From: a virus
Length of the DNA: 64,000 nucleotides
Virus record (IMG/VR): IMGVR_UViG_3300032323_001214
Span: 62,001 to 126,000 of that record
Direction: 5' to 3' (one strand)
Shown: positions 3,873 through 60,897 of the stretch, in pieces
Layout of the letters: each line of letters starts with the position of its first letter
How positions within the stretch are numbered: position 1 is the stretch's first letter
Position numbers and translations under genes: made by a program
Notes under the pieces: generated by a model
Database searches by the model: none
Told to the model about the DNA's origin: nothing
The model's input: the letters and a program-made list of their open reading frames with translations, nothing else

Positions 3873-3903
3873 ATACTTATCATGTATTATTACAACCTAT
3901 AAT

Positions 3904-20834: not shown

Positions 20835-23800
20835 ATGGCCACAAGTACAAGAATTAGAACACTAAACTTTTTACCAGACATTTTCAAAACAACAACCAAT
20901 GCTCAGTTTTTAGCGGCTACATTGGATCAAATTGTTGACCAACCAAATACGGAACGTATTGAAGGTTATATTGGTAGTAAGTTTGGCTACGGCATAAATG
21001 CGAAAAACAAATATGTAATTGAACCAACTAAAACACGAACAGATTATCAACTAGATCCAGGTGTAGCTTTCTTAAAGAAAGATACAGGTATTGCACAAGA
21101 TTTTATCAGTTATCCTGGCATAATTGATGCATTGAAGCTTGAAGGTGGTATCACAAACAATAATGATAGATTGTTTGAAAGCCAAATCTATTCATGGGAT
21201 AGCTTCACTGACTTAGATAAAATAATTAACTTCAATCAATATTATTGGTTACCAGAAGGTCCTGATCCAGTAACAATTTCTACCGACATTGTTTTCAATG
21301 CATCTGATTATATTATTACTGATGCCCCAAATGGTTACAACGTAACTGCTGATGGACAAGCACAGGGTTCTACAAATCCTACGCTAACGTTATTGCGTGG
21401 CGGAACATATAGATTTAGTGTCAACCAAGATAGTCAATTTTGGATTCAAGGCGCCCCGGGCGTTACTGGCTTAGACCCCACACAAACAAACGTTCAAACA
21501 CGTGATGTATTTGGTGTTTCTAATAACGGTGAGGAAGTAGGTATAGTGACATTTACTGTTCCAGCAAAAGATGCACTAGATGAATATAATTTTCCAGGAA
21601 ATAACATAGTTGATGTAGTATCCACTACTCCGTACGACCAAATTAACGGACAACTACTAAGTACTGTTGGAAATATTGATGGTATTAGTTCACTAAATGG
21701 CCTTACTGTAATGTTTTACAATACAGGTGTACCCAATGAACAAGGTTATATAAGTAATTTCTTTGATGAAACTAACTTTGACGTAAACAGTAATTTGGTA
21801 CCGGCACAAACAATTACTATTAGCTCCACTAATTCTACTGGAAATGTAATAACATGTTCTTCTACTGCTAACTTAGTAGTGGGACAAACTATAACATTTT
21901 CTGGATCTACTTTTGGTGGAATACTAGTATACGATGCCGTATTTCCAAATACAATATATTATGTAAATTCTATCATTAGCCCCACTGAATTTACTATTGC
22001 ACAACAATTATTTGATGTTGGTGTAACCCCTTTCAGTGTATCGACTGCTAGTGGTTCAGGTTTAATCGCTAACATTAATCAAGGCTTAAATGAAGAAGGT
22101 TATTACACTGATGTAACCGCAACATTTTACCGTATAACTTATGCGGGTAGCGTGAGTGATCCAGTATTAAGATTAGTAGAAGTTGGACCTATTCCTACTA
22201 ATCAAAAAATTACTGCACAATATGGTACTGCTTGGATCGCTAGAAATTTTTATAGAAACGTTGCGGGAACAATTAATTTAGTTCCATATAACAGTGCAAT
22301 ATTAGATGTGTTATATTATCAAGATGGTACTTCCGGTAATAAGGTTGGTCAATTACGTATAATTAATAGCAACACTACTAATCGTATTGATGTAGTAGAA
22401 GATATATTAGGTAAAAAACAATATACAGCACCAAACGGTGTACAATTTACCAATGGCTTAAAAGTGGTATTTCAAGGTGACATCTATCCTGTAAGCTACG
22501 AGAATGTTCAATATTATGTTGAAGGTGTAGGTACTGCCATTCAATTAATACCGGTATCAGATTTAATAGCACCTGAACCGTTTACCTCAAGCACATATAT
22601 ACCATATGATACTTTACCTTATGATATTGGTAACTATGACAGTAACTTATATATACCAGTAACTCCAGATTACATTACTATCGCTAGAAACAGTATTAAT
22701 AAAAATCCATGGTCACGTAGCAATCGTTGGTTCCATATTGATGTTATCACTGCTACTGCTACATACAATAATAACCCAAATTTTGTAACTATAGCAGCCA
22801 CACAAGAAAATAAAGCAAAACGACCAATCATTGAATTCTATCCTAACTTAAGATTATTCAACTCAGGATATTTAGGTAAAGCTCCAATTGACTTTATTGA
22901 TTTTAGAACAACTGATGCGTTTGAATACGTTGCGGGTCAAGAAAATTATTACCCGGACGTTGAAGTATATACTGCATACACAGCTACAATTAATAGCGCA
23001 GTTTCAAGCACGACTACTACAATCTCATTATCTACGTCAGATATTGTTGGTACATTTCAAGTTGGTCAATATATAAATGACACAACTAATTTGTTGCCAA
23101 CTAATGCACAAATTAGTAATATCAGTGTTGCATCTGGCATCACTACACTGACAGTCACTTGGTTAGGCAATTACACATTTGGTAGCACTACTGTAGCTTC
23201 ATTGATTGCTAACGATGGTCAGAATGATAACTATGCATTATTTGATGGTGCCAGAATTGTTTTTGCCGCAGACACAAATGAAAATGTAAAAGACAAAATA
23301 TATGTGGTAAGATTTTCTTCAATCACACCACTATCAACTCCTGTGATTACTCTTACCCCAGCAGATGACGGTGAAGTTCTTCCATTAGAACAAACTGTTG
23401 CATTTAGAGGATTTAATTATAAGGGTAAAGATTTCTACTTTGATAGTATTGATTGGTTAGAATCACAACAAAAAACAACAGTTAATCAACCTCCGTTGTT
23501 TGATATCTTCGATGAAAATGGTATAAGCTTATCAAATAGTGAGTACTATGTTGGTACATCTTTTAAGGGTAATAAATTATTTTCATATGGATTGGGATCA
23601 GGATTAGATGATTCCATCTTAGGCTTCCCAATACGATATAGTTCAATAGACAACGTAGGTGATATTAGTTTTGATGTATCACTTAACGCAGACACATTCA
23701 ATTATGTTAGAGGGACTACGCCCATAACTCAAAGAGTTAACACAGGATATGTTTATAACTACACCGTTTTAGGTGAACAGTATAGACAAATTGGTTGGGA

Positions 23801-26800
23801 AACTGCAGTGGGCAGTAGTGTTCAGTATCAACTATTTGAATTTAATTACTTTGCAAGTTCACCTACAACCACATACACATGTGACGTATCAATGCTTAGT
23901 CCCGATGCATCAGCATGGCCTACCTTGCAAGTATATGTGAATAACGTACTACAAACAGGAACATACACAGTAACTGTTGGACCAAATAGTACCGTTATTA
24001 ATCTTGAAGTACCTGATCCATTAGTAGATACAGTAGTGCAAGTATCAATTTTGAGTAATCAAGTAAGTAAAATTGGATATTATTCTGTACCTATTAACTT
24101 GAATAATAACCCATTGAACCAAGATATAGTTGTAGCAAACGTAGGTGATATTCGTGGTCAATATCAAAGTATCTTCTACAATAACCCTGACATTACCGGT
24201 GTTGTATTTGGTGCTAACAATTATCGTGACTTGGGCAATCTTGTTCCATGGGGCAATCGAATTATACAGAACAGCGCAAGCTTAGTATTGCCTGGCACGT
24301 TCCTTCGCAAACAAAATCACAATCTATTCAATGCGTTAATGTTTAACAGCAAAGAATATATTAATTTCAAAACATTGTTAGTTGGCACAGTTAACAACAC
24401 TGACTATAGCCGACACTATCCTCCTGCATATATGCTAGACGATGCACTGGATCAAATAACAGCTAGTAAAACAGAAGATGAATCATTCTTCTGGAGCGAT
24501 ATGTTACCGAATAAAGCAGCCTATATTACTAACACATATAGTTTTGCAAATAGTTTGGACGTATCGATATATCCATTGAGTAAGGTTTATAACTATGATA
24601 CCGCAAATTACAATGGTATTTTAGTATACTTAACAAGAACAACCAGTGGCGTAACAACGACCACTCAATTGATAAAAGGAATCGACTACACCGTAAGTTC
24701 AACTAGTCCTGCATTAACAGTTGAAACTGACTTGTTGCCCGGTGATCAGATTACTATCAATGAGTATAATCAAACATATGGTAGTTACTGCCCCAATACA
24801 CCCACTAAGTTAGGTCTATATCCAAGCACAATTCCTCAAGTTATACTAGATAGTAACTATGTAACACCTACCTATTTTATAGTAGGACATGATGGATCAT
24901 ACAACAAATTGTATGGTGATTATATCGATGGACAATTGATTGATTTTAGAGATCAAGTATTGTTAGAATTTGAAAAACGTGTCTACAATAACTTAAAATT
25001 AAGTAATGTTATTCCTATTAATGAATCGGATGTTATACCTGGGTTTTGGAGAACAACTGACTACAGTTTAGATGAAATAAAACAGATATATTCTATAAAC
25101 TTTTTAAACTGGGTAGGACAGAATCGTGTTAATTACAAAAAACAAGTTTACAATGCAAATAATCAATACACTTACAACTACAATCGTAGCGGTAACAAAA
25201 TAAACAGAGATCCAATTCCACAAGGTTATTGGAGAGGTATATATGAATACTTCTATGACACAAGTAATCCTGATACTAAACCATGGGAAATGTTAGGTTT
25301 TGCAAATCAACCAACATGGTGGGCATCGAGATACGGATCAGCACCCTATACAAGTGATAACTTAGTATTGTGGGGGGATTTAGCTGCCGGTTATATTTGG
25401 AATGACGGCGTGCCATACGTCAATGAAGCATATGTAAGACCTGAATTGTTACAAGTGTTGCCGGTCGATACTGCAGGTAATTTGGTATCACCGTTTATAG
25501 CAATCGTAGGTAATTACTATAACCAATCATTTGTGAGAGATTGGGCTGTAGGAGATGTTGGTCCAACAGAATTTAGCTATCGTAGAAGTAGCACATGGCC
25601 ATTTGATCTAATGAAGATGTATGCGTTAACTAAACCTGCAGAGTTTTTTAACTTAGGGGTTGACATTGACAACTACAAATACAATGCAGAATTTAATCAA
25701 TATCTGGTTAACGACAGAAGCCACTTAGTAATTAGTGATGTAGAAATATATGGTAATGGTACTCCTAAAACAAGTTACATAAATTGGATTGTTGACTACG
25801 AGAAACAATTAGGGGTTGACGCAACAAAGAATATTACTGAACTACTAGATAACTTGGATGTAAGGTTAGTGTATCGTTTGGCTGGATTCTCTGACAAGAG
25901 TTTATTAAAGTTCTACGTTGAAAAGGGAACACCTAATAGCAATAACGCATCATTATTGATTCCTGATGAAAGCTTTGGTGTATTATTATATGACAATCAA
26001 CCATTCGAACGTATCGTTTACAGTGGGGTGATAGTTCAAAGCACGCCTGAGGGTTATTTCAAAGTATATGGTAACTCACAAACTAATGCATATTTTACTA
26101 TATCGAATCCTAAAATAAATGGTAACTATGACAGAATTACTTTGCAGAATTTGTCTGTACAAGTACCTAAAGATTATTATGATACTACCACTATAGTATC
26201 ATATGGAACCGAATTTTACTCATTACAAGAAGTTGCAGTATTTTTAAGTTCATATGGTAGATACTTGTCTACTCAGGGCGTATTGTTTGATCAAATCGAA
26301 ACTGGTCTAGAAGTTTCATGGAATCAAATGGTTGCTGAATTCTTATATTGGGCACAGAGTGGATGGGAACCGGGAAGTCTTATCAATTTAAATCCGGCAG
26401 CTAGTTTGATTTCTATAAACAAAGACAGCTATATTGTTCAACCATTAACACTACAACAACAAAACTTTATTCTAAATCAAAACTTATATCCAATACAATC
26501 CGTTGATATGTCAATTGTGCGTGATGGTACGTTGTTTACAGCACAACCTTTAAATCAAGGTGACACTGTTGCGTATGGACAATTTAACATCAGTAATTTT
26601 GAACATGGTATTGTATTTGATAATGTAACATTATTTGATGATATCATTTATAATTTGATAACAGGTTTGCGCCAACAACGAATTATTGTTCGTGGTACTA
26701 AAACTGCTGAGTGGAACGGTACTATTGATGCTCAAGGTTTTATTCTTAACCAAGACAATATTATTGAGTGGAATAATGAGACAAAGTATACCACTGGTTC

Positions 26801-29800
26801 TATTGTCAAATACAAAAATAAGTATTGGATAGCAGTAAAGATAATACAAGCTAGTGAAGTATTCGATGAACGTGATTGGAAAGAAACAGATTATAATGAA
26901 ATACAAAAAGGTCTATTACCAAACTCAAGTACACGTAGCTATGAGAGCACATTGTATTATGATGTAAACAAGGCCAACCTAGAAAATGATGCTGACTTGT
27001 TAAGCTTCAGTTTAATTGGATATCGCCCACGTGATTATTTGGCTCTTGTTGACCTAACTGACATTACACAGATTAATGTATATAAAAACTTTATTAAGAA
27101 TAAAGGTACATTGAATGCAGTATCTGCATTTAAAGGCGCAAACTTACCACAGGGTGGTATTGATTATGAAGTATACGAGAACTGGGCAATTAAAGCAGGT
27201 GAATTTGGAGGTGTATTAAACAGTAACTTTGTAGAGTTTAAGTTAAACCAATCTGAATTAACTGGTAACCCATCTACTGTAGAATTAACTAACGGGGCGT
27301 ACACTCAAGGAATACAACAACAAGTTCCGTTGTATAACATTTTCAATTACGGTAGACCAATAAATTCTCCTAATGTATTACCCACACTACCAATAGATAC
27401 TCCTAATGTATTGTTTCCAGACGCAGGCTACGTAAGTTTTGAAGATGTCAAAACGTATGCATACTATTACTTTGGATTGACTGGTGCTGAAACACCTATA
27501 ACAAGACTATATCAAGGTGATTATGTTTGGATCGCTAACTTACAAGGTACATGGCAGATCATGTCACCATTATCTTTGGGTACCGTAATAGAAGCAAGAA
27601 ATCTAGCAAATGGTACTATTACTCTACGATTTGCAACAGCACACGCATTAACAAAGTATTCAGCATTTGCAGTAACTAACTTTGATAATAGAGTCAATGG
27701 ATACTATACTGTTCAAAATGTCATTGATCCGTTTACTGTATTAGTTTCTGCTAATTTGAATCCATCAGTGCAAACCATTACAGGTCAAGGTATTGGCTTT
27801 AAGTTCCAATCACATCGTGCTCAAGAACCTAGCGACATTATCAATTTACCATTGCTTAACAACGAATTTGTAAAAAACAAAGTATGGGTCGATCTTGGCA
27901 ACGAAGGTAGCTGGCAAGTTTATCGTAAGAGTTTGAACTACACATATAGTAATGAAATTGTAAAAGCTAATTCACAATCATTTGGTAGTGCAGTAGCATA
28001 TACTGACAATATTGGTTATTTAATTGCTGATGCAGATGCCGGCGTAATGTACCGATATATCTATAATGCATTGACCGAACAGTATGAGCTATTCCAAACA
28101 TATACCGGATCTGCGTCTTTTGGTACAACTATAAGTTATGCAGGTGATACGTTTGTCGTATCACAACCTACAGGATCAACCGCAAGTGATAGAACTATCA
28201 ATATCTATCAACTGGTATCTACTACGTTGACTGATAGGCTTGAATTAATTCAAGAACCAATTCAAGCACCATCAAGTTCTATAACAAATTGGGGAAGTGC
28301 AACTGCAATTTCCGGAGATCAAAATTGGTTATATGTTTCTGACACTGTGAATAACAGAGTATATGTATATCGTAAATCACAAGTAACTGGAAAATATGAA
28401 TATGTAAACATTATATCAATCACAGGAGTTGGCGGTCTAGATCAATTTGGATATTCATTATCCACAGATTACTATGGATATACTTTAGTAATCGGCACAC
28501 CAGATCAAAACTATAGTTCAACGATTGACAATTCTGGCTACAGCTACATCTTTGATAGACTATATCAGAACTTTGAAGCACAATCTTCAAGTCAACCGTT
28601 CATCCCGTTGTTGTTTAATTTAGCAGTTAATACCAATACTACTACATATAATGCCAGTGCAACTACAGCAGGATCTAACAAAATAAATGTAGATACACTA
28701 CAAGGGTTGACTGTGGGTACTCCATCAGTATTCACTGGTCCTGTGTTTGGTGATATTTCATTGAACACTGTGTATTATATACGTGATACCTTTTCTCCTG
28801 CTAATCAAGTAACACTATCAACTAACAAGTATACAGAAACAGTTGATAATACATATGCAACAGGCAATAAAATTCGTGTAAGTAGTAATTCAGACTTTGT
28901 AGTAAACGCACCAATTGTGTTTTACGGTGAGACAGGTACTTCCAACATTGTATCTGGTACAAAATACTATATAAAATCAATTACAACAGTAACGATTGAC
29001 ACTATTAACTATGATGCTATCACAATATCTACAACGATAGGTGGCTCTACATTTACTGTTTCAAATAGTGACTTGAATGTAACAGCAGTAACATTTGGCA
29101 ATGAAGTAACATTGTCTTCTGATACAGGTACAATGACACTAAATGCACAAACACAACCTGTGTCAGTGTCTGTAAATGGTACAACTATTTCTGAAGATCA
29201 GTATGCAGTAATAGGCAATGTATTAAACATGTACGGTAATATAACAGCCGGTGACATTATTACATTAGATAGTTCAACATTTGTACTGATGCAAACATTA
29301 TCTACGGGAACTACCCCTAGAGTAGGTACACAATTTGGTCAAAGCGTTGCTGTTAATAAATATGCATCAGAAGTTTTAGTTGGTGCACCCTTCCAAATAA
29401 GTGAGACTGCAGGTGAAGGTGCAGTCTATCGATTTACTAACGGTGGCGGCAAATATGGTATGATTACCGGTACCGTCGATTGTAATTTAACATCAAGTGA
29501 AACAATTTTAATTAATGGTTTTGTAGTAACATTGCCTATAGGTGGTGCAACAGGCGCAGCTAATGCTATTAATAAAGCAAACATTACAAACGTTCAGGCC
29601 GCAAATGTTGATGACAAATTAGTAATCAGTCTAGTCAACACATCACTTGCGACCATCAATGACAAGTTAAACATAGCCGCACTAAGTCCCACAGCATATA
29701 CTGGCATGGGTATTGCTCCATATACATTGACACAAACAATTACATGTCCTCATGTTGGTGGTGCTACACAATTTGGTGAAAAAATAAAATTTAATGAGTT

Positions 29801-32800
29801 TGGATCATTCATTGTAAGTGCGCCAGCTGGCACAAGATTTGCAGGCACAACATTTGATTCAACTGATGATGAAAACTTTGATAATGATACAATATTCGAC
29901 AACAACACAACACAATGGGTAGACCCGTTTGCTAATGCTGGCGCAGTATACATGTTTGATTATCTATCAAATTATAATGAAAATTTATTAAACGTTGGTA
30001 ATTTTGTATATGCACAAAGTGTAAATGATATTAATCAAGAATATGGTGATCAACCATATTATGGTCAAGCAATAGATTATAATAACTATACAGTAATAGT
30101 TGGCTCACCACAGTTCAAACCTGCTTTCGTTAATGGGCAAGTAGTTGTTTATACAAATACTGCAGGCGAACAAGACTGGGTTGTGTTCAAAGAATCTAAC
30201 CCAATTGTTGACACATCACGTATTCAAAATGGTTTATTGTATAGTGCAAGCACTAACAATACACTTGAGAATTTAGATTATATCGATCCGTTACAAGGTA
30301 AATTATTGGGCGTTGTGCGTGAGAATATTGACTATGTATCAAACACAGATCCAGCATCATACAACTCACCGAATGCTACAAACAGAGGATCAAGTGTTTG
30401 GGGTTCTCCTCAAATAGGTGAACTATGGTTCGACACAAGCAATACCAGATTTGTGAACTATCATCAACCAGATGTTACCTATAATAGTAAATGGTGGGGT
30501 CGTGTGTTCCCAGGTAGTAACGTGTCAGTTTACTCATGGATTAGCAGTAATGTAGAGCCATCTCAGTATCAAGGACCGGGCGTACCGTACGACACAGATA
30601 ATTATGCTATTGAATTAGTACAAGATGCACGTGGAAGTTTAGTACCACAGTATTTTTATTGGGTACGAAATACAAATATAGTGTTTTCTAAATTAGGAAA
30701 GACTTTATCTGATACTATACTTGAATATTATATTATAAATCCTATAAATTCAGGCATTAGCTACTTTGCACCATTACTACCCAATGCATTTGCACTATAC
30801 AATTCAGATCCATACATCAATAATATTGATACTATATTCCATGTAGGATTTAGCACAGGTACAAACGATGATGTATCACACAGTGTGTATAACTTAATTC
30901 GTGCAAATTATGCAGACGATTTCTTACCTGGTTTACCTGCAACAAATTCATTAGACATACCCGAATCGTTATACGATAGGATGCTTGATAGTTTAGCAGG
31001 CTTGGACGAGACTGGTGCTGTGGTTCCAGACCCATTCTTACCAAAACCAGTACAGTATGGTATCTATGCAAGACCTAGACAAAGTTTCTTTGTTAATAGA
31101 TTTGGCGCGTTACAAAATTACCTACAATATGCTAACGAAGTATTGGCTCAATTCCCGATCACTGAAACTAGAAGTGCTAACTTCTTGTTCCAAGATGGAT
31201 CAGTTAATCCAAGTACAGTGAATAATCCTAATTGGACTGGTGGTACTGAACTATTCTACGATACACAACAATATTGGAATTATATTGATTGGTGGGCTGC
31301 TGGATATAATAACAACACAAAATCAGCATTCCGTGTACCTTTGTACGCAGACCTATCGACATTATCAGTACCATCAGGTACTATAGTTACTGTAGCACAA
31401 AATGGTAATGGTAAGTTTGAAGTATACAGAAGCAATGATGATAATACATGGACCCGTATTGGTCTAGAAGACGGTACAATCGAATTCACTAACACACTTT
31501 GGGACTATGAAGAAGCTCGCTTAGGTTTTGGTGACAACTTCTTTGACACCACACCATATGATTCTTTCCCTAGCCAAGAAACTCGATACATATTACGAGC
31601 ATTGAATGAGCAAATCTATACACAAGAGTTGCAAATTTACAGAAATAAGAGTTTAATTCTGTTATTTGAATATATTCAGTCAGAAACTATTGAAGGTCAA
31701 AATTATTTGCCATGGTTAAACAAAACCTCATTTATCGATGTTGGTCATACTATTCGTGAATTGTTACCTATCGAAGTATTCCAAACTGACAATCAAGATT
31801 TCTTGCAAGGTTATTTAAACGAAGTTAAGCCATATCACGTAGTGATCAAAGAATTCTTGTTTAAGTATACAGGTCAAGATGTGTATGACGGGGATATAAC
31901 TGACTTTGATCTACCGGCACAATATAATTCAACCATACAAAAATTTGTGTCACCTGAACTAGTGTATGCAAACCCAAGTTCTGCATATGAATTCTTGCCA
32001 ACAGATCCTATATGGGAAACACAGGCATACAATCAATGGTTTGACAATTTTGGATTAAGCATCACTGGTGTTAATGGTTATCCTATAACTACCTTGTCAT
32101 CATATATTTCCTTGAACAGTAGTTCATTTACAGTTGACAACAGTTTTGGTTTCCCGATCAACGGCGTAGTTTTAATTGACGCAGAGTTGATTGCGTATTC
32201 TAACGTAGACCGTAGTACTAACACATTGAGTGGATTGACACGTGGTGTAGACGGTACAGCTATTACACAACACATACCCGGGGCACAATTAACTATTGAT
32301 CTTCCTGCTGTATTGTTATTAGATGGCGGCCGCGGTTATACTGAACCACCTAGAGTTACTGCATATTATGATGAGACATTATATGGACCACCAAAACGAC
32401 CAGCGCAACTTGAGGCAGTCATGTTTTTGGATTCAGTATTATCAGTAAATGTAATAGATCCAGGAGCTGGATACCCGGTGTTGCCTGAAATTAGAATCGA
32501 TCCATCTATCTCAATATTGTTCAATTCTACACAAGTAAGCACATTAACAAATACTATCGTGTTGGATACACCTTTGTTACAAACAGGTGATTTGGTTAAG
32601 TATATTGTGGGTGAGAACACCACTGCAGTGGGTGGATTAGATGACGGTCAATATTACTATATAAACGTATTAGAAACTGCTCCGGCATTTACGATTGCGC
32701 TATACACTAACTACGGCGATGCAGTAAATGACCAGCGCAGAGTTGTGTTGTTCGATCAAGGTATTGGTTCTGATAATAAATTAAATTTAAGTGCTAGAGC

Positions 32801-35800
32801 AAGTTGTGTATCGTCTAGTGCACCTATAAGACAAAATCAAATTACGCTACGTTTTGACAGAACATCATACACATCACGTGTGACAGATTGGGAATCAGGA
32901 GCTTTCTATGGAAGTTTCTATGCAGGATTATATACCAATAGCGAAAGTATTTCAAGTTCTTCTATAAGTCTACAATCTACACAGCCACCAATAAGTAACA
33001 TACTAGCTAGTGCAGCCGGAGCCGCATTTGAAATTAATAGCGTAACGAATGATGAATCATCGACTTGGTCGTCACGTACTAGAGATGTTGTTGCTACTGT
33101 TGCAGATAATAAGATCACAATTGTAGAATCTGCAGGTGGTACTACACAAGGTTTATCAGGTGTTGGTCCAACAATAGGTTTCTATGTAGGTATGCCTGTT
33201 AAGTTTGAAGGCGCCGTTGGCACAACTGGTTTAGTAAATAGTACAACATACTATGTCGCAGAAGTTACAAATGACAGTCAAATTAAAATTTCAGCGACTG
33301 ACGGCGGACCCGTATTCTCTTTAAATGCAGAGGTAATTTCTGTTGCGGGTCTAACATTATATGTTGGTCAAGTACTTGACTCGACTATTATAAATATTAC
33401 CTATCCTGGCATACGACAAGTAACTGCAACTACCGCAATTACTAACAAATTAACAGTTCCGTTAACATTAAGCGGTCAAGGTGGAACATCAGAGTTCTAT
33501 ACTAACTTGCCTGTATTCTTTACAGGAAATGTGTTTGGTGGAATCATTGAAAATGAAACATACTATGTAACTACCGTAGCAGATAACCAAACGTTCACTC
33601 TTTCAACTAAACAAGATCCAGTAATGCTTAACATAACTGGCACATCTAGTACTGGTAATTTGGTCACATGTAATAGTACTTTGGGCTTGGCAGTAAACGA
33701 TCCTATCATCTTTACTGACTTGACAGTTTCAAGCGGAACGACTAATTTAGTTGAAGGTACTACATATTATGTACAATCAATATTCAGCGGAACTCAGTTC
33801 AAAGTTGCTACAAACGTTAATAGCGGAGAGATTAATCCCGGCACTGCTACATTGACGGGTGTTGTTACGGATCAAAAAGACACAGTAACACTAACGACCG
33901 CTACTGGAAATATGACAATTAATGTAGGCTTACCAATAAGCCCAGGACAAATTAATGGTCAGCAATTCACATTCTACCCAACATCAGCTCAAATTAATGA
34001 TCCTGCGTATACAAATGGTAACTTAATAGAAAGAGTTATACCTGCGACAGTTACAGAAACTACAACAGGCACCGGCGGTTGGGTATTCTTAACAGATACT
34101 AGCGGTGGGTTAACTAACATATATGTTAATATGCCAATAGAAGTAGATACTACTTACGGCGGGCTAACTGCCGGTACAGTATATTATGTTACCGAAGCAG
34201 ATTCTATCGAAACTACAGTTACAACTACTACTGCAGGTAATGCATTAATATGTACTAGCACTGCTGGATTCTACGTAGGCATGCCTATAGTATTCGATGG
34301 TATATCATTAGGAGGAACACAACTAGACTTCCAATACTATGTACAATCTATTGCTAGTAGTACCTCATTTAAAATTGCAGAAACACCAACCGGCCCAGAA
34401 GTAGATTTAACTTCAGACAGTGGTTCAATGAATGCGTTAGGTGAAAGCTATATTAAAGTTTCAACAACATTGTCTGGAACACCAATTGCACTAACTACTG
34501 TAACCGCAGGTGAAACAAACTTGACACAAGTTATTGATCCAACAGGACTTGATGCTGCTACATTTGACGTAAGTTCTATACTAGGTGGATATCGTGTAAT
34601 TGTTACAAATGATAGTTCAGGATACGCAATAGATAATACCATAGTTATAAATGGTAGTGAATTGGGTGGAACTGACGGTGTTAATGATTTAACAATGACT
34701 GTTAACACTATTGGTACAAATGGTGAATTATTATCACTAATATGTTCAGGTACTCCGGCTGGAACAAATACTGAATATTACTTGAAGGTTATTTCAGCAA
34801 ATGAATGCGAAGTATATAGTGATCCACTATTACAAATACCAGTAGCATATGACGATTTTTCATTTAATGGAATTCGTTCCACAACAGCTACAAGTGTTAC
34901 AGCATCAAATGATAGAATCACTGTAAACAGTAACTCATTGTTTAATGTAAATGACCCGGTTGTGTTTACTGGTTCAGTGTTTGGAGGATTAGTAGTAGGA
35001 CAAACTTACTATATACTAGCCAAACCAACATCTACTACAGTAACTGTATCAGCAACTGTAGGTGGATCGGTCGTAAATATTGCTGCTGACGCATCCGGTA
35101 CAATGTATATGGCTAAGTCAGGTGATTATGCATTATTACCAGAACCATTCTTCTTCAATCAAAGCTTGGTTAAGTACAACAATAGAGTGTATCAGTGCGT
35201 TGTTTCTAATAATGATACTGATTTTATATTTGGTAAGTGGGAAGTATTAGACAGCGGGTCACGTGAATTGAATGCACTTGATAGAATTGTCGGCTATTAT
35301 CAACCCACTGTAAACATGCCGGGTCTAGACTTAACTCAGCTAGTAAATGGTATAACATATCCTAATTCTACATACTATGGTAATGCATTTGCACCAGATG
35401 ATGAGTACGAATTAGACACGATATTACAAGACCAACCATTCTATCCAACTGAGATTGATACAGCATCTATCATATGGAATGGCTCTGGATATATTGGCGT
35501 TGCAAACAGCCCTGAGTATTCAGCAATAATTGCAAGCCCAGATAATACTGACTGGGTGATTGATAATATTTCTAATCAACCAGTTGGAGTGACAGACATT
35601 GCATATGCAAATGGAAAATATGTAATAACAACCACTAACGCTGCTACTCCTATATATACTAGCCCTAACGGAACAATATGGAGCACTAATGGTAGCTATA
35701 CACCTTACGGTTCGACACCATATGATGAAATACCATATGATGTAACAGCTTTAGTAGTAGAATCAAACTTATTAAATAGCGTTAGTTATTTAAATAACAA

Positions 35801-38800
35801 GTGGGTGGCAGTAGGAAACAACATAGTAACATCTGAGGATGGAACAGTATGGAGAGAAACTGACGCATTCACAAATGGATTAACAAATGTATTGAATGGT
35901 ATTATAGGTGCAAATACTACTAACTTCACTGGTTTTGTTGCAGTAGGTAAAGGACAAGAAGTTGTTTCTGGTATTACTACTAATGTTAACTTATTAAAAA
36001 CTAGTACAAATGGAACAATCTGGTCTACATTGAACACTTTATCTACTAAAGGATTTAATGCTGTAGCTGCTAGCCCAACACAACTAGTAACTGTTGGTGA
36101 AGATGGTGTGATATATGCATCACAAAACGGTGTTAATTGGTTAGGTGTAAACGAAGCAGTTATAATAAGTGTTAATGGTTCTTCTAATGAAATCATTGTT
36201 CCAAGTACTGCTGGATTCCAAGTGGGTGATACTGTACGATTTACTAATAGTTTTGGTGTGATTAATTCATCTACTAGCTACACAATTAGTGCGATACCTT
36301 CAACGACTCAAGTTCAATTAACGAGCGTCATATTATCTGGTACAGTTCCTACATCAACTACGTACATGTACAAATACCCTAGAACAGAAACATTGAATGA
36401 TGTTCACTATGCTAATGGTATATATGTTGCGGTTGGTGATGTAGGTGCTGGTAACGCAGTTATCAAAACATCAAGTGACGGTTATACCTGGACAAGTCGC
36501 AACAGTACAGTTGCACAGAAATTAAATGGAGTAAATTACAATTCTGATGATGGTGTATGGATTGTTGTAGGTGACAATAATGTAATTCTACAAAGTACTG
36601 ATAACGGTGTAACATGGGAAAGTTCAAGTGTATTCTTAACTGATCCAACTGTATATAATGTTCAAGGTGATCCTTTCTTATCAGGATATGGTCCAGAAGA
36701 AATGGTACCGGGTGTTGTATCTGACAATTTAACAATGATTGTTACTACACGCCCGGGTACAAACTGGGATGCAACTGAATATCAACATGTAGGCTACAAT
36801 GTTGTGTCTACTGAGATTGTACCTGATTCAGGAACACAGACAACATTTAGCTTTGACAATCTTGTACAGATACCTGCACAAATTGCAGTATGGCAGATTG
36901 ACGGTATAACCGAGTTAGGAACAAGACTATACGATGGTTATGATTATGTAACAAACAATAGTTCAAACTGGATTAACAAAATAGTAGAATTAAACAGTCC
37001 TCTGCCATTAGGAGATTCTTTACGCATCGATGTATATGAAGTAGGTAACGGAGACCAATTAGTAAAATCTAATTCACAGACTGATCCAATTCGTATAAAT
37101 GATGTTACTGGATTCAATGAAATTTATCTAAGTTGTAACTACTCAGGTACACGAACTAGTGGTTCTGGTGTAATTCGTCAGGGTACCGAACCAATACAAA
37201 CTACAGTGATTGCAACCGAGAGTACCGGTGACAGTATGGTATGTATTGATGCAAGTAAATTGACTATTAACCAACAAATCACATTCCAAGGTGATGTATT
37301 TGGTGGTGTAGCAATTGATACTCCTTATTATGTAAAAACTATAAGTAACATAACAAATAGAATTACAATCAGTGATTCAATTGTATCAGGAGTTGCCGGC
37401 CCAACGTTACAACTAACATCTGATACCGGATCAATGGACTTGATTATCCAAGTTGGATCTGGTGCAGTATGGAGTGATCCAATTACATATCACAATGGTA
37501 ATAAATTAATATTTGGTACAGTTACACAAATATCACAAACTAAGAGTTCTACAAACACCATAGTTTGTAACAGTACTGGTGGTATAGCAATCAATGATCG
37601 TATTACATTCAGTGATACAATGATAGGTGGATTAACTCCGCAGACAACATACTATGTTCGTTCAGTAGTAGATGGTAATGAATTTACCGTTTCGTTAACA
37701 CAAGGCGGTCCAGTAGTAGCATTGACTGACAACAATGGCGGTGCATTAGCAATCACAAATGATTATGCGTTTGGCCAAGTAATTAATTCAACTGCTGCTA
37801 AAATAATATTCTCGGCACAATACAATGATACAGTTGACTATTTGGTTTATACTGTATTTGGAGAAACACAACCGCAACAGTATGGTTACACTATACCAGA
37901 AACTGAAGTATTTTTGGTACCATCTACACCAGTAACAACGTTTACTCTAACTAATTACTATAGCGGGGACAATCCAGAAAATGCTGTGGTTGAGCACAAT
38001 GGGTTACGATTGGTTAATTTATCAGATTACACAATTGATACTATGACTGGTGTGTTGACATTGACTTTTTCTCCTAGTGCAGGTGATACAATTGCTGTTA
38101 CAACATATAATTTAACAGAAAGACAGTACCTACATACTAATTATGGTGGAAGCTTCTCCGGATCAATAACTACCAGTCTGACAGTTAGCAATTCTACACA
38201 TCAACCGGGTTATGACGAAACAAATTATGACATAGGAGACTATTCACCTGGACCAGATTATTTGACATTAGGTTCAGGTTCGACAGCATCACTAATAGTT
38301 AATGATGCTATTATATTCAATGCTCCTACTATTGGTGGTATTGTTGCTAATCAAACGTATTATGTTGTAAATATTTTAAGTTCAACTCAGTTTGCTGTAT
38401 CTAATACTTTGGGGGGCGCACCTTTAACATTGACAACAGCTTCTGGGTCAATGATAGGTATTATTAATCCACCAACTGTTTCTAATATCGTTGCAATTAA
38501 TAACGCAATAGCACCTCCTATTGCATCAACATTAGTAACTACAGCAACAGGTACAGTAATTACAGGAACAACGACTGCGGGATTTGTAGTAGGTCAAACT
38601 ATAATTTTTAAATCAGCCGGTAGCACTATTGGTAATATTGTAAATGGTGAATACTATTATGTTGAAAGTATTATTGACGGAACTGATTTTACAATTAGTG
38701 AAACGCCAGGTGGTAGTGCATTTGTAGTAGATGCCGGCACCGTAACAGGAACACTAGTTGTATATGTTGGTGGTTTAGAAGCAGTACGAGTCACTACAGG

Positions 38801-40097
38801 TGTACCTCATAACTTGGCAACCAATAATGTCGTAAGAATTGATGGAACTTCTGGCTCTACACAACTAAACAACAACATATATTATGTTAAAGTTGTAAGT
38901 GATACACAAGTAGACTTATATGAGTATGGTATCCCGGGCAATGCAGGTTATGATCCTGCATATGCGGCTATAAACTATCCAGTAGTTTCGGTGTCTACAT
39001 ATACAGGTGGAGGTTATATTTGGTTAGATCAAACATTTACACTGACAACTACTGTTGCTAGACAAACATATGTAACTACTAATCGAATTCGTGTAGACAG
39101 CACAAGTGAATTAGTTGAAGGAACACCAATTATATTTGCAGGTACTAATATTGGTAATTTGATTGCCAATACAACATACTATGTAAAAACTATTGTATCT
39201 AGTACTTTATTTACTATATCCGCTACACGAGGAGGAAGTGAATTTGTACAGATAAATGCTACTGGTACTATGGGGGCAACTCAATGGGAGCAAGTTAATG
39301 TAGATAGACTTTGGGTAACCGTTAATGGATATAGAGTACCTTCTAGTTCATTGGTAATAAACCCGGATAACAATTTGAGTATTCTTACTACCATTGTTCC
39401 CGGAGACATTATTGTGATTACAAGTATGATGCCAACAGCGACTCCAAACGAAAAAGTTTATATCAACAATGTAACCAAAAGTGGTATTTCGTCCGTGTAT
39501 AGAGCAAATACAGAAACACGTACATGGTTAACTAGTGATTTGTTTAATACTGATCAAACTATCTACGTAAATGATGTTACACGTTTAACTAATCAAATAG
39601 TCCAAAACGTTGCTAGCCCAGCTGCAATTGACGGGGTGACAAATATTGGATTAACTGCTGATAAACGTATTATTTGTCAGGTGATTATTTATAACAATAC
39701 AACAAGTACAACGTTGAGTTCTTCTGCTTATAGGGTAGTTGTAGATAATATTGCACCTGTATTGAAGATTACTTCCGGTGTGTCTACCGGAGATTCATTG
39801 ACTATAACAACAATTGAAGGCAATATTATATATGTTAACGGGGAACAGATTAGATTCAGTACTGTTGATTTTACACTAAATTCTTTATCTAATCTACAGC
39901 GTGGAGCTAATGGTACAGGTGAACAGACGTTTATTCCTGAATATTCAGAAGTATATGGTATATTATCAGAAAATAGACTAGTTCAAGCTGACTATTTTGA
40001 GACTTGGAATAGCTATATTTACAATACTACTGAGGGAGATCCGTTGCAGATAAGTCTTACTGCCGGAGCAGATTTCTTGCGAGCGGATGTTTCCTAA
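20835..40097 (+). CDS. Giant 6,420-aa baseplate/tail structural protein
   Basis: A single uninterrupted reading frame of 19.3 kb. The N-terminus (LNFLPDIFKTTTNAQFLAAT, then IEGYIGSKFGYGI) and following region to about residue 1750 look like the large protein that follows gp6 in environmental T4-like phages, in the position of T4 gp7. Further modules: a carbohydrate-binding-like segment (about 1976-2015, YTTGSIVKYKNKYWIA ending RDWKET); FG-GAP-like propeller repeats (about 2380-3090); FLQGYLNEVKPYHVVIKEFL (about 3655); a GGRGYTEPPRV motif (about 3831); many repeats containing TYYV (about 4085-4760 and 5450-6150); Asp-box repeats (about 4880-5260). No transmembrane or catalytic motif was recognised. 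The modules suggest a baseplate protein fused to host-binding domains. Gene identity with gp7 is inference. Confidence 0.75.
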   Translation: MATSTRIRTLNFLPDIFKTTTNAQFLAATLDQIVDQPNTERIEGYIGSKFGYGINAKNKYVIEPTKTRTDYQLDPGVAFLKKDTGIAQDFISYPGIIDALKLEGGITNNNDRLFESQIYSWDSFTDLDKIINFNQYYWLPEGPDPVTISTDIVFNASDYIITDAPNGYNVTADGQAQGSTNPTLTLLRGGTYRFSVNQDSQFWIQGAPGVTGLDPTQTNVQTRDVFGVSNNGEEVGIVTFTVPAKDALDEYNFPGNNIVDVVSTTPYDQINGQLLSTVGNIDGISSLNGLTVMFYNTGVPNEQGYISNFFDETNFDVNSNLVPAQTITISSTNSTGNVITCSSTANLVVGQTITFSGSTFGGILVYDAVFPNTIYYVNSIISPTEFTIAQQLFDVGVTPFSVSTASGSGLIANINQGLNEEGYYTDVTATFYRITYAGSVSDPVLRLVEVGPIPTNQKITAQYGTAWIARNFYRNVAGTINLVPYNSAILDVLYYQDGTSGNKVGQLRIINSNTTNRIDVVEDILGKKQYTAPNGVQFTNGLKVVFQGDIYPVSYENVQYYVEGVGTAIQLIPVSDLIAPEPFTSSTYIPYDTLPYDIGNYDSNLYIPVTPDYITIARNSINKNPWSRSNRWFHIDVITATATYNNNPNFVTIAATQENKAKRPIIEFYPNLRLFNSGYLGKAPIDFIDFRTTDAFEYVAGQENYYPDVEVYTAYTATINSAVSSTTTTISLSTSDIVGTFQVGQYINDTTNLLPTNAQISNISVASGITTLTVTWLGNYTFGSTTVASLIANDGQNDNYALFDGARIVFAADTNENVKDKIYVVRFSSITPLSTPVITLTPADDGEVLPLEQTVAFRGFNYKGKDFYFDSIDWLESQQKTTVNQPPLFDIFDENGISLSNSEYYVGTSFKGNKLFSYGLGSGLDDSILGFPIRYSSIDNVGDISFDVSLNADTFNYVRGTTPITQRVNTGYVYNYTVLGEQYRQIGWETAVGSSVQYQLFEFNYFASSPTTTYTCDVSMLSPDASAWPTLQVYVNNVLQTGTYTVTVGPNSTVINLEVPDPLVDTVVQVSILSNQVSKIGYYSVPINLNNNPLNQDIVVANVGDIRGQYQSIFYNNPDITGVVFGANNYRDLGNLVPWGNRIIQNSASLVLPGTFLRKQNHNLFNALMFNSKEYINFKTLLVGTVNNTDYSRHYPPAYMLDDALDQITASKTEDESFFWSDMLPNKAAYITNTYSFANSLDVSIYPLSKVYNYDTANYNGILVYLTRTTSGVTTTTQLIKGIDYTVSSTSPALTVETDLLPGDQITINEYNQTYGSYCPNTPTKLGLYPSTIPQVILDSNYVTPTYFIVGHDGSYNKLYGDYIDGQLIDFRDQVLLEFEKRVYNNLKLSNVIPINESDVIPGFWRTTDYSLDEIKQIYSINFLNWVGQNRVNYKKQVYNANNQYTYNYNRSGNKINRDPIPQGYWRGIYEYFYDTSNPDTKPWEMLGFANQPTWWASRYGSAPYTSDNLVLWGDLAAGYIWNDGVPYVNEAYVRPELLQVLPVDTAGNLVSPFIAIVGNYYNQSFVRDWAVGDVGPTEFSYRRSSTWPFDLMKMYALTKPAEFFNLGVDIDNYKYNAEFNQYLVNDRSHLVISDVEIYGNGTPKTSYINWIVDYEKQLGVDATKNITELLDNLDVRLVYRLAGFSDKSLLKFYVEKGTPNSNNASLLIPDESFGVLLYDNQPFERIVYSGVIVQSTPEGYFKVYGNSQTNAYFTISNPKINGNYDRITLQNLSVQVPKDYYDTTTIVSYGTEFYSLQEVAVFLSSYGRYLSTQGVLFDQIETGLEVSWNQMVAEFLYWAQSGWEPGSLINLNPAASLISINKDSYIVQPLTLQQQNFILNQNLYPIQSVDMSIVRDGTLFTAQPLNQGDTVAYGQFNISNFEHGIVFDNVTLFDDIIYNLITGLRQQRIIVRGTKTAEWNGTIDAQGFILNQDNIIEWNNETKYTTGSIVKYKNKYWIAVKIIQASEVFDERDWKETDYNEIQKGLLPNSSTRSYESTLYYDVNKANLENDADLLSFSLIGYRPRDYLALVDLTDITQINVYKNFIKNKGTLNAVSAFKGANLPQGGIDYEVYENWAIKAGEFGGVLNSNFVEFKLNQSELTGNPSTVELTNGAYTQGIQQQVPLYNIFNYGRPINSPNVLPTLPIDTPNVLFPDAGYVSFEDVKTYAYYYFGLTGAETPITRLYQGDYVWIANLQGTWQIMSPLSLGTVIEARNLANGTITLRFATAHALTKYSAFAVTNFDNRVNGYYTVQNVIDPFTVLVSANLNPSVQTITGQGIGFKFQSHRAQEPSDIINLPLLNNEFVKNKVWVDLGNEGSWQVYRKSLNYTYSNEIVKANSQSFGSAVAYTDNIGYLIADADAGVMYRYIYNALTEQYELFQTYTGSASFGTTISYAGDTFVVSQPTGSTASDRTINIYQLVSTTLTDRLELIQEPIQAPSSSITNWGSATAISGDQNWLYVSDTVNNRVYVYRKSQVTGKYEYVNIISITGVGGLDQFGYSLSTDYYGYTLVIGTPDQNYSSTIDNSGYSYIFDRLYQNFEAQSSSQPFIPLLFNLAVNTNTTTYNASATTAGSNKINVDTLQGLTVGTPSVFTGPVFGDISLNTVYYIRDTFSPANQVTLSTNKYTETVDNTYATGNKIRVSSNSDFVVNAPIVFYGETGTSNIVSGTKYYIKSITTVTIDTINYDAITISTTIGGSTFTVSNSDLNVTAVTFGNEVTLSSDTGTMTLNAQTQPVSVSVNGTTISEDQYAVIGNVLNMYGNITAGDIITLDSSTFVLMQTLSTGTTPRVGTQFGQSVAVNKYASEVLVGAPFQISETAGEGAVYRFTNGGGKYGMITGTVDCNLTSSETILINGFVVTLPIGGATGAANAINKANITNVQAANVDDKLVISLVNTSLATINDKLNIAALSPTAYTGMGIAPYTLTQTITCPHVGGATQFGEKIKFNEFGSFIVSAPAGTRFAGTTFDSTDDENFDNDTIFDNNTTQWVDPFANAGAVYMFDYLSNYNENLLNVGNFVYAQSVNDINQEYGDQPYYGQAIDYNNYTVIVGSPQFKPAFVNGQVVVYTNTAGEQDWVVFKESNPIVDTSRIQNGLLYSASTNNTLENLDYIDPLQGKLLGVVRENIDYVSNTDPASYNSPNATNRGSSVWGSPQIGELWFDTSNTRFVNYHQPDVTYNSKWWGRVFPGSNVSVYSWISSNVEPSQYQGPGVPYDTDNYAIELVQDARGSLVPQYFYWVRNTNIVFSKLGKTLSDTILEYYIINPINSGISYFAPLLPNAFALYNSDPYINNIDTIFHVGFSTGTNDDVSHSVYNLIRANYADDFLPGLPATNSLDIPESLYDRMLDSLAGLDETGAVVPDPFLPKPVQYGIYARPRQSFFVNRFGALQNYLQYANEVLAQFPITETRSANFLFQDGSVNPSTVNNPNWTGGTELFYDTQQYWNYIDWWAAGYNNNTKSAFRVPLYADLSTLSVPSGTIVTVAQNGNGKFEVYRSNDDNTWTRIGLEDGTIEFTNTLWDYEEARLGFGDNFFDTTPYDSFPSQETRYILRALNEQIYTQELQIYRNKSLILLFEYIQSETIEGQNYLPWLNKTSFIDVGHTIRELLPIEVFQTDNQDFLQGYLNEVKPYHVVIKEFLFKYTGQDVYDGDITDFDLPAQYNSTIQKFVSPELVYANPSSAYEFLPTDPIWETQAYNQWFDNFGLSITGVNGYPITTLSSYISLNSSSFTVDNSFGFPINGVVLIDAELIAYSNVDRSTNTLSGLTRGVDGTAITQHIPGAQLTIDLPAVLLLDGGRGYTEPPRVTAYYDETLYGPPKRPAQLEAVMFLDSVLSVNVIDPGAGYPVLPEIRIDPSISILFNSTQVSTLTNTIVLDTPLLQTGDLVKYIVGENTTAVGGLDDGQYYYINVLETAPAFTIALYTNYGDAVNDQRRVVLFDQGIGSDNKLNLSARASCVSSSAPIRQNQITLRFDRTSYTSRVTDWESGAFYGSFYAGLYTNSESISSSSISLQSTQPPISNILASAAGAAFEINSVTNDESSTWSSRTRDVVATVADNKITIVESAGGTTQGLSGVGPTIGFYVGMPVKFEGAVGTTGLVNSTTYYVAEVTNDSQIKISATDGGPVFSLNAEVISVAGLTLYVGQVLDSTIINITYPGIRQVTATTAITNKLTVPLTLSGQGGTSEFYTNLPVFFTGNVFGGIIENETYYVTTVADNQTFTLSTKQDPVMLNITGTSSTGNLVTCNSTLGLAVNDPIIFTDLTVSSGTTNLVEGTTYYVQSIFSGTQFKVATNVNSGEINPGTATLTGVVTDQKDTVTLTTATGNMTINVGLPISPGQINGQQFTFYPTSAQINDPAYTNGNLIERVIPATVTETTTGTGGWVFLTDTSGGLTNIYVNMPIEVDTTYGGLTAGTVYYVTEADSIETTVTTTTAGNALICTSTAGFYVGMPIVFDGISLGGTQLDFQYYVQSIASSTSFKIAETPTGPEVDLTSDSGSMNALGESYIKVSTTLSGTPIALTTVTAGETNLTQVIDPTGLDAATFDVSSILGGYRVIVTNDSSGYAIDNTIVINGSELGGTDGVNDLTMTVNTIGTNGELLSLICSGTPAGTNTEYYLKVISANECEVYSDPLLQIPVAYDDFSFNGIRSTTATSVTASNDRITVNSNSLFNVNDPVVFTGSVFGGLVVGQTYYILAKPTSTTVTVSATVGGSVVNIAADASGTMYMAKSGDYALLPEPFFFNQSLVKYNNRVYQCVVSNNDTDFIFGKWEVLDSGSRELNALDRIVGYYQPTVNMPGLDLTQLVNGITYPNSTYYGNAFAPDDEYELDTILQDQPFYPTEIDTASIIWNGSGYIGVANSPEYSAIIASPDNTDWVIDNISNQPVGVTDIAYANGKYVITTTNAATPIYTSPNGTIWSTNGSYTPYGSTPYDEIPYDVTALVVESNLLNSVSYLNNKWVAVGNNIVTSEDGTVWRETDAFTNGLTNVLNGIIGANTTNFTGFVAVGKGQEVVSGITTNVNLLKTSTNGTIWSTLNTLSTKGFNAVAASPTQLVTVGEDGVIYASQNGVNWLGVNEAVIISVNGSSNEIIVPSTAGFQVGDTVRFTNSFGVINSSTSYTISAIPSTTQVQLTSVILSGTVPTSTTYMYKYPRTETLNDVHYANGIYVAVGDVGAGNAVIKTSSDGYTWTSRNSTVAQKLNGVNYNSDDGVWIVVGDNNVILQSTDNGVTWESSSVFLTDPTVYNVQGDPFLSGYGPEEMVPGVVSDNLTMIVTTRPGTNWDATEYQHVGYNVVSTEIVPDSGTQTTFSFDNLVQIPAQIAVWQIDGITELGTRLYDGYDYVTNNSSNWINKIVELNSPLPLGDSLRIDVYEVGNGDQLVKSNSQTDPIRINDVTGFNEIYLSCNYSGTRTSGSGVIRQGTEPIQTTVIATESTGDSMVCIDASKLTINQQITFQGDVFGGVAIDTPYYVKTISNITNRITISDSIVSGVAGPTLQLTSDTGSMDLIIQVGSGAVWSDPITYHNGNKLIFGTVTQISQTKSSTNTIVCNSTGGIAINDRITFSDTMIGGLTPQTTYYVRSVVDGNEFTVSLTQGGPVVALTDNNGGALAITNDYAFGQVINSTAAKIIFSAQYNDTVDYLVYTVFGETQPQQYGYTIPETEVFLVPSTPVTTFTLTNYYSGDNPENAVVEHNGLRLVNLSDYTIDTMTGVLTLTFSPSAGDTIAVTTYNLTERQYLHTNYGGSFSGSITTSLTVSNSTHQPGYDETNYDIGDYSPGPDYLTLGSGSTASLIVNDAIIFNAPTIGGIVANQTYYVVNILSSTQFAVSNTLGGAPLTLTTASGSMIGIINPPTVSNIVAINNAIAPPIASTLVTTATGTVITGTTTAGFVVGQTIIFKSAGSTIGNIVNGEYYYVESIIDGTDFTISETPGGSAFVVDAGTVTGTLVVYVGGLEAVRVTTGVPHNLATNNVVRIDGTSGSTQLNNNIYYVKVVSDTQVDLYEYGIPGNAGYDPAYAAINYPVVSVSTYTGGGYIWLDQTFTLTTTVARQTYVTTNRIRVDSTSELVEGTPIIFAGTNIGNLIANTTYYVKTIVSSTLFTISATRGGSEFVQINATGTMGATQWEQVNVDRLWVTVNGYRVPSSSLVINPDNNLSILTTIVPGDIIVITSMMPTATPNEKVYINNVTKSGISSVYRANTETRTWLTSDLFNTDQTIYVNDVTRLTNQIVQNVASPAAIDGVTNIGLTADKRIICQVIIYNNTTSTTLSSSAYRVVVDNIAPVLKITSGVSTGDSLTITTIEGNIIYVNGEQIRFSTVDFTLNSLSNLQRGANGTGEQTFIPEYSEVYGILSENRLVQADYFETWNSYIYNTTEGDPLQISLTAGADFLRADVS
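27970..30110 (+). repeat. FG-GAP-like beta-propeller repeats within the giant protein
   Basis: About residues 2380-3090 carry repeated units of the integrin-alpha type: SFGSAVAYTDNIGYLIADAD, QFGYSLSTDYYGYTLVIGTP, QFGQSVAVNKYASEVLVGAP followed by GAVYRF, and QFGEKIKFNEFGSFIVSAP followed by GAVYMF. Pattern: FG.S(V/I)A, then a strand, then (V/I)G(T/A)P, then GA.Y.F. Such propellers commonly mediate binding. Confidence 0.6.
33090..39290 (+). repeat. Tandem TYYV-type beta-rich repeats within the giant protein
   Basis: At least ten divergent copies of a 70-90-residue unit: (N/T)-x-(I/V)-x-C-x-S-T, then (V/I)GxP(I/V)xFxG, FGG(L/I)V, TYYV, S(I/V)xSxTxFx(I/V), ending in a GG..V.L/SGTM-like segment. 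Examples: FYVGMPIVFDGISLGG, FNVNDPVVFTGSVFGG, LIVNDAIIFNAPTIGG, LVEGTPIIFAGTNIGN. Earlier copies occur near 21830-22080 and 28640-29140. Confidence 0.65.
35480..36620 (+). repeat. Asp-box (BNR-like) repeats within the giant protein
   Basis: Motif S-x-(D/N)-(G)-x-x-W recurs: SPDNTDW, SPNGTIW, SEDGTVW, STNGTIW, SQNGVNW, SSDGYTW and STDNGVTW, separated by WVAVG/YVAVG/WIVVG strands. This is the periodicity of Asp-box propellers as in sialidase-like and Ycf48-like folds, often carbohydrate- or protein-binding. No sialidase catalytic residues were sought successfully. Confidence 0.6.
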
Positions 40098-40112: not shown

Positions 40113-40262
40113 ATGAACACGACTACGGACCAACATAAAAAAGAGCCTTTAGAGGCTCCTATAAAACCCAATGAAACCGGAGGGTTTTATTTTAGTTCCC
40201 ACGTAAGAATAACAGACCCAAATACAAAAGAAGTATTAGTCCAAACTAGAGGCGACAACTAA
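40113..40262 (+). CDS. Small virion-associated(?) protein, 49 aa
   Basis: 49 aa with a polar N-terminus (MNTTTDQHKKEP) and a compact C-terminal segment GGFYFSSHVRITDPNTKEV. No stop-free upstream extension exists (in-frame TAA at 40095). It overlaps the next gene by TAATG, so translation is coupled. The 'ITDP..KEVLVQTRGDN' ending resembles the start of the next protein's motif (KIYDPNNGEVFVDKHN), hinting at a short, related strand pair. Function unknown; position suggests a tail or baseplate role. No ribosome-binding site is seen. Confidence 0.6.
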   Translation: MNTTTDQHKKEPLEAPIKPNETGGFYFSSHVRITDPNTKEVLVQTRGDN

Positions 40263-40882
40263 TGTCAGTAATTACATTATCATATAAAGTAGAGGGTTTT
40301 CTAAAAATCTATGACCCAAACAATGGGGAAGTTTTTGTAGACAAACACAATGCTATTAACTACGAAAATATGTCAGAAGCTATTGCTGACACATTAAGTA
40401 GTCGAGGTTACGGTGAAATTTATCAAATGGCGTTCGGTAACGGAGGCGCAAGTGTAGATGAGACCGGAATTATCACATATTTACCACCCAATACAACTGG
40501 TCAAAATGCGGCTCTGTATAACCAAACTTACGCTAAAATCGTTGATGATACTAGCGTTTTCAACTTAGATCCTACACGCAATAAAATGACTGTTTCACAC
40601 ACTACTGGTCGTGTATATACGGACATTTTAGTACAGTGTTTGCTAGATTATGGTGAACCTGCAGGACAAAATGCATTTGATAATAGCACCCAAACAGACT
40701 CAAACTATATTTTTGATGAATTGGGGCTATTGGCAAACTATGGAACAGACAGTGACGGAAACGTGATTACTAGGTTACTTACCCATGTAATTTTCCACCC
40801 TGTCCAAAAGAGTTTAAACAGACAAATACAAATAGATTACACAGTTAGAATTCAAAGCCTGACTAACTTAGTAACTATTTAA
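40262..40882 (+). CDS. Tail/baseplate structural protein of unknown role
   Basis: 206 aa, no signal peptide or membrane segment. It contains GFLKIYDPNNGEVFVDKHN near the start, GEIYQMAFGNGGASVDETG in the middle and FIFHPV-like THVIFHPVQKSLNRQIQI near the end. I recognise the pattern from environmental T4-like phages, where it follows the giant baseplate gene, but not a function. Its context, between the giant protein and the fibre-like proteins under a late promoter, points to a virion component. Confidence 0.6.
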   Translation: MSVITLSYKVEGFLKIYDPNNGEVFVDKHNAINYENMSEAIADTLSSRGYGEIYQMAFGNGGASVDETGIITYLPPNTTGQNAALYNQTYAKIVDDTSVFNLDPTRNKMTVSHTTGRVYTDILVQCLLDYGEPAGQNAFDNSTQTDSNYIFDELGLLANYGTDSDGNVITRLLTHVIFHPVQKSLNRQIQIDYTVRIQSLTNLVTI

Positions 40883-47820: not shown

Positions 47821-47829
47821 GGAAAATAA

Positions 47830-54362: not shown

Positions 54363-54370
54363 AGGTTGTT

Positions 54371-60892: not shown

Positions 60893-60897
60893 GCTTA

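Follow-up and report, generated by a model that had tools for sequence, protein, structure and literature searches.

An enlarged, module-bearing member of a jumbo-myovirus protein family encoded directly after gp6

A reading frame of 19.26 kb lying directly behind the baseplate wedge genes of a virus raises the question of what its product is, how it became so long and whether it works in the place of T4 gp7 and P2 gpI. We analyzed this frame in a window of 64,000 nucleotides, positions 62001–126000 within a 249,606-bp IMG/VR virus record. The frame begins with an ATG at 20835, its stop ends at 40097 on the plus strand, and its 6,420 codons are open throughout; an earlier note had claimed a single uninterrupted ORF of this size, and its coordinates, strand and length proved correct. 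At ~36% G+C, chance is far too small to explain such a frame, and the rival ORFs inside it are each at most 136 aa long. The predicted protein (~701 kDa, pI 4.3) is rich in T, V, N, S and G, while Lys and Arg together make up just 4.7% of the residues. The gene and its neighbors are as follows:

16928..17377, plus strand: gp25-like baseplate wedge gene (phrog_261, phrog_43)
17426..20809, plus strand: gp6-like baseplate wedge gene, directly upstream of the giant gene (phrog_10646, E=2.4e-257)
20835..40097, plus strand: giant structural-protein ORF, 6,420 aa (phrog_10938, E=3.7e-266)
40262..40882, plus strand: conserved 206-aa gene, downstream of the giant gene (phrog_11259, E=1.1e-68)

By PHROG match, the upstream genes are a gp53-like wedge gene (phrog_7145), a gp5-type hub/lysozyme gene, gp25 and gp6; further upstream, on the other strand, lie putative gp46- and gp47-like genes, named from the matching gene order in PA5oct and RaK2. 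The giant gene is followed by the 206-aa gene, whose place in PA5oct is taken by a gene of similar size with a resembling N-terminus, and by fibre-like genes. The order gp25-gp6-giant is common to PA5oct, Phosso, Atu_ph07, RaK2 and phAPEC6. Between the giant and the 206-aa gene, a 49-aa ORF (40113–40262) resembles, by eye only, 41- to 42-aa ORFs found there in PA5oct and Atu_ph07; BLASTP gave no support for it being a paralogue of the next gene's N-terminus. At window positions 46249–62184, downstream of the baseplate region, eleven radical SAM proteins follow one another almost without a break. They are assigned by PF04055, some of them with scores short of the Pfam cutoff, and several also carry SPASM. 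A carbamoyltransferase (63130) and GDSL-hydrolase-like genes (60140, 62285) adjoin them. So large a group of enzymes is unusual in a phage; at the corresponding place, Phosso and Atu_ph07 are each annotated with a single radical SAM gene. Elsewhere in the full virus record, repetitive proteins at 34838–38935 and 38003–40030 strongly match large "baseplate wedge"/virion PHROGs, including phrog_701, and are likely further appendage proteins.

Profile comparison matched the giant to phrog_10938 in five stretches, and by sequence it is an enlarged member of this known jumbo-myovirus family. A tblastn search with a 900-aa core region matched 85 phage records, and a scan of IMG/VR with the conserved core gave at least 596 confirmed relatives, indicating that the gene is common there; a RaK2-based scan of the same database returned two records only. 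PHROGs places the family in the category "head and packaging," which is at odds with the synteny. Mass spectrometry detected phAPEC6 gp245, adjoining wedge gp244, in virions (17 unique peptides; PMC7247149), the record of PA5oct gp355 is annotated "ESI-MS/MS," and in phage CBB the "structural protein" CBB_236, beside wedge CBB_237 and probably the same gene, was found with 21 peptides (PMC5259590). These data concern shorter homologues that lack the long extension described below, and the coverage is low (7.6% for gp245). The moraphage paper (PMC12619734), in the part of it consulted, was not found to concern the giant-protein lineage.

With the N-terminal 200 residues, we found 25 other records, 24 of them with a complete frame and the 25th running off its contig end. 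The complete relatives are 52–98% identical to the giant across this segment; the closest, from a different sample, is 98% identical and 6,512 aa long. Full-length alignment divided the protein into two parts:

20835..31994, plus strand: ancestral core, residues 1–~3720, shared with PA5oct, RaK2, Atu_ph07, Phosso and SCTP-2 at 20–40% identity
31995..40094, plus strand: C-terminal extension of the lineage, residues ~3721–6420

All members of the lineage conserve the extension, which is poorly represented elsewhere. Within the two parts, we recognized beta-structured or propeller-like regions:

27981..30164, plus strand: FG-GAP-like propeller region, residues 2383–3110, with ~7 FG-x-x blades counted by inspection
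32094..32300, plus strand: GFP..RG beta domain, residues 3754–3822, which P-SSM2-type gp7 likewise carries toward its N-terminus (i-E 0.0011)
35412..36659, plus strand: Asp-box propeller-like region with seven regular Asp-boxes found by regular expression (4901, 4942, 4999, 5056, 5096, 5212, 5254; PSII_BNR sub-threshold)

Every match of the giant in the Pfam/NCBIfam search was below the curated cutoffs, including those of the FG-GAP-like region (PF10282, PF14312). For the Asp-boxes, the regular expression gave eight matches in one 420-aa cluster, seven of them evenly spaced, compared with at most two in 1,000 shuffles. Residues 4901–5261 hold seven evenly spaced S-x-D-x-G-x-x-W motifs, the pattern of a seven-bladed Asp-box (BNR) propeller, and the region appears propeller-like on these grounds. 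The Asp-box cluster of one relative (L186) sits at residues 642–887, outside the C-terminal extension, suggesting that the propeller-like module differs in position, too.

The remaining repeated element is a unit of 72 residues, as modeled by an HMM, centered on T-x-YYV. The giant contains 18 of these TYYV units by the HMM, among them the following:

21828..22058, plus strand: TYYV module, residues 332–408, in a slot filled in 8 of 25 lineage members
28659..29069, plus strand: two adjacent TYYV modules (2609–2745), separating blades 4 and 5 of the FG-GAP-like region
32541..34433, plus strand: TYYV cluster, units 3903, 4091, 4198, 4270, 4410 and 4464 (HMM and slot classes)
34899..35111, plus strand: TYYV unit 4689–4759
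36174..36359, plus strand: TYYV unit 5114–5175, between Asp-boxes 5 and 6
37212..37745, plus strand: TYYV units 5460 and 5568
38253..39272, plus strand: TYYV units 5807, 5902, 5989 (partial) and 6077

An E1_FCCH-like segment (residues 5984–6059) lies amid the last of these. The HMM found no units in reversed or shuffled controls, 9–19 units in 23 of 24 relatives and none in the most divergent relative (L188) or in five isolates. Considering units of at least 55 aa, we defined 30 positional slots, of which ~9 are near-universal and the rest patchy. The best match of a unit was in the same slot in 270 of 290 cases and in another slot in 20, which suggests that most of the insertions are old and orthologous and that some units have moved recently. 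The isolate proteins, with no units, have 3.3–4.6 thousand residues; those of a sister clade (43–48% core identity) mostly have 4.0–5.0 thousand with mostly 0–2 units; and those of the window lineage mostly have 5.8–6.6 thousand with 9–19 units. The number of units correlates with protein length (Spearman 0.53, Pearson 0.69) and explains only part of its variation, so the units are one cause of growth among others. Three more proteins of the full virus record (183944–185323, 209164–211653 and 211686–214136) carry the module, which is thus common to several probably structural proteins of the genome. We found no significant match for TYYV in the PDB or in public phage records; the consensus had a weak match in PHROGs (phrog_5838, E=1e-4).

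The earlier note proposed structure prediction in overlapping pieces, and AlphaFold2 (AF2) models of residues 1–1130 (mean pLDDT 81.6) and 1150–2230 (mean 79.4) were mostly confident and mostly beta-rich. For residues 1–1130, we found no credible Foldseek match; the matches with the best E-values, to multicopper oxidases, had a TM score of ~0.1 and rmsd above 24 Å and were rejected as generic beta likeness. The second piece gave matches of small extent to baseplate chains of phages and contractile injection systems, and contained one recognizable small domain:

26760..26897, plus strand: CBM5/12-like (chitin-binding type) small domain, residues ~1976–2021 (PF02839 sub-threshold; Foldseek), its range set from the Pfam match and the AF2 strands, as the Foldseek query range was not printed

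The matches to carbohydrate-binding modules of chitinases and chitin deacetylases had a probability of ~1.0 and 1.7–2.3 Å over 44–50 columns, with E of 0.1–0.6. The predicted model thereby supports a CBM5/12-like chitin-binding fold, and with its Pfam match below the cutoff, the domain is a candidate glycan binder. In both pieces, no gp7 was among the matches listed. The earlier picture, in which one intact ORF encodes a structural protein of the tail that combines TYYV and Asp-box units with propeller-like and carbohydrate-binding-like modules, is supported.

We then considered the wedge question. The giant occupies the slot directly after gp6/J, and the order gp25-gp6-giant equals W-J-I of P2 and gp25-gp6-gp7 of P-SSM2. 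Searches of the contig, which may be incomplete, with HMMs and phrog_964 brought up no further candidate for gp7 or gpI. HHalign comparisons of seven core pieces against T4 gp7, P2 gpI and P-SSM2 gp7 gave nothing significant (best P ~0.07–0.3), the HMMs and phrog_964 yielded no wedge match to the giant either, and on this account we do not class the giant as a gp7. The negative result is weak evidence, however, because the control comparison of P2 gpI with T4 gp7 failed as well. An HMM match of P-SSM2 gp7 to the giant (E=5e-4), tried as a sign of the wedge, was traced instead to residues 3754–3811, the GFP..RG accessory domain that both proteins have. Two segments could still be wedge-related:

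20835..21254, plus strand: conserved N-terminal segment, residues 1–140, with an LP-x2-F motif and a helix at 20–33 (isolate alignment; low AF2 confidence to ~120)
26952..27224, plus strand: conserved KGT segment (KGT...ENWA), residues 2040–2130, with low AF2 confidence in isolation, proposed to form the latter half of a wedge domain

The two stretches of low AF2 confidence, ~1–120 and 2022–2131, are both strongly conserved, and by eye, the LP and KGT motifs of the giant resemble LP and KG of gp7/gpI. Together with the low confidence of both segments in isolation, this resemblance would fit a wedge domain interrupted by ~1,900 additional residues. HHalign with a spliced N-terminal and KGT profile against gp7/gpI was negative, the register of KGT with SKGI of P-SSM2 (P ~0.07–0.09) is suggestive only, and covariation between the two segments (95 sequences, Neff 88) was no higher than between control segments. 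We regard as doubtful the full proposal that residues 1–140 and 2040–2130 are halves of one gp7/gpI wedge domain, that the single polypeptide unites the wedge with a module-shuffled host-contact apparatus and that TYYV is a mobile plug-in spreading among slots and virion proteins.

The likeliest reading, held with somewhat better than even confidence, is that the giant works in gp7's place. The gp7-like wedge role suggested earlier has positional support only; HHalign gave no significant match to gp7 or gpI, and gp7 was not among the Foldseek matches listed for the two predicted pieces. A serious competitor, to which we give appreciable though lesser credence, holds that the giant either replaces gp7 without being homologous to it or is an addition at the periphery of the baseplate: the wedge would be built from gp6, gp25, gp53 and others, and the giant would be purely a receptor-binding or scaffold appendage on gp6. 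The undetectable homology and the beta-rich models agree with this, as does the statement in PMC7029224 that in cyano- and pelagimyophages another protein, VrlC, seems to take the place of T4 gp7. It accords less well with the strict gene order and the lack of another gp7 candidate, or with two strongly conserved segments that are predicted with low confidence when alone, as expected of an assembly interface, and the failed HHalign control makes the missing homology weak evidence.

Taken together, we consider it likely that the giant is a single virion protein of the baseplate region, sitting in the gp7/gpI slot, grown by extension and TYYV insertion and probably bearing host-contact surfaces. 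In the mechanism that we propose, the contractile-tail baseplate region would include one giant virion protein, encoded directly after gp6 as in other jumbo myoviruses, whose ~3,700-residue core in the wedge slot most likely binds the gp6-gp25-gp53 wedge. The protein grew in this lineage through a C-terminal extension of ~2,700 residues and through TYYV beta modules of ~72 residues, inserted where domains meet and between the blades of propellers. Propellers, CBM5/12-like domain and extension, the last of these rich in modules, would all project outward, most likely as a peripheral scaffold in contact with the host surface; host binding by the extension is probable from its domain types.

A single virion protein is not the only way to use such a frame. 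The giant could be translated whole and then cleaved, the core entering the virion and the extension being removed or forming separate subunits, and we judge this unlikely. The low virion coverage of the phAPEC6 homologue would agree with cleavage, but low tryptic coverage is expected anyway from a protein so poor in Lys and Arg. The fibre-like protein just downstream (40913–42109) has a C-terminal match to Peptidase_G2, the IMC autoproteolytic chaperone domain, so processing probably exists among the tail proteins of this phage; the Pfam search found no protease or Peptidase_G2 domain in the giant itself, and the extension is retained across the lineage. That separate genes were fused, or joined by an assembly error, as might be feared of a very long, repeat-containing ORF on a metagenomic contig, has a negligible probability and was rejected, since the same frame is single and uninterrupted, with no internal stop, in the 24 relatives on other contigs (5,360–6,631 aa from the first ATG), and five isolate phages carry the homologue as a single ORF.

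Among cultured phages, homologues with the shared core are found at the same locus after gp6 in PA5oct (gp355, Pseudomonas, 3,857 aa), RaK2 (ORF070, Klebsiella, 3,326 aa), Atu_ph07 (gp180, Agrobacterium, 4,449 aa) and Phosso (Sinorhizobium, 4,555 aa), as well as in phAPEC6, whose virion protein gp245 (E. coli, 381.9 kDa) was mentioned above. SCTP-2 gp140 (Salicola, 3,807 aa) has the core but is preceded by another long ORF, and AP-J-162 gp58 (4,455 aa; PMC11242549) is a further family member. Compared with these isolates, the window lineage has ~2,700 additional residues, TYYV modules and the Asp-box propeller region. Such isolate homologues, the 5,195-aa gp7 of P-SSM2 and a PHROG of 6,136 positions were already known, and the giant is no size record; the description of it as one of the larger phage proteins imaginable was overstated, given also the relative of 6,631 aa. 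The long PHROG, phrog_701, is a virion structural family of comparable length that is not among the giant's PHROG matches, and phage structural proteins above 6,000 aa are therefore already catalogued. What is new is the lineage-wide form of 5.4–6.6 thousand residues, the TYYV plug-in module, the map of its slots and the stepwise series of sizes. The growth of one jumbo-phage virion gene becomes visible across relatives, from ~3.3 to 6.6 thousand residues, along with a countable module gained and lost at ~30 slots, including the junctions of propeller blades. If the wedge role is true, a single covalent chain in these phages would make up the core of the baseplate as well as much of the surface that contacts the host.

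T4 gp7 (1,032 aa) and P2 gpI (176 aa) resemble the giant in position after gp6/J and, by eye, in the LP/KG motifs, while size and beta-module content differ, there is no significant match in sequence, and gp7 is not among the fold matches listed. A parallel is the giant cyanomyophage gp7 of P-SSM2, a Prochlorococcus phage, with the same slot (gp25-gp6-X), similar gigantism and the shared GFP..RG domain. That protein (L199:15006–30593; NC_006883 75005–90592) is by profile a homologue of T4 gp7 (HHalign probability 95.9, E=6e-9), whereas the window protein matches neither; the match also bears on the statement that cyanomyophages lack T4 gp7 (PMC7029224). Giant proteins thus occupy the gp7 slot both in cyanophages and in this jumbo clade, and no overall sequence homology is detectable between the two.
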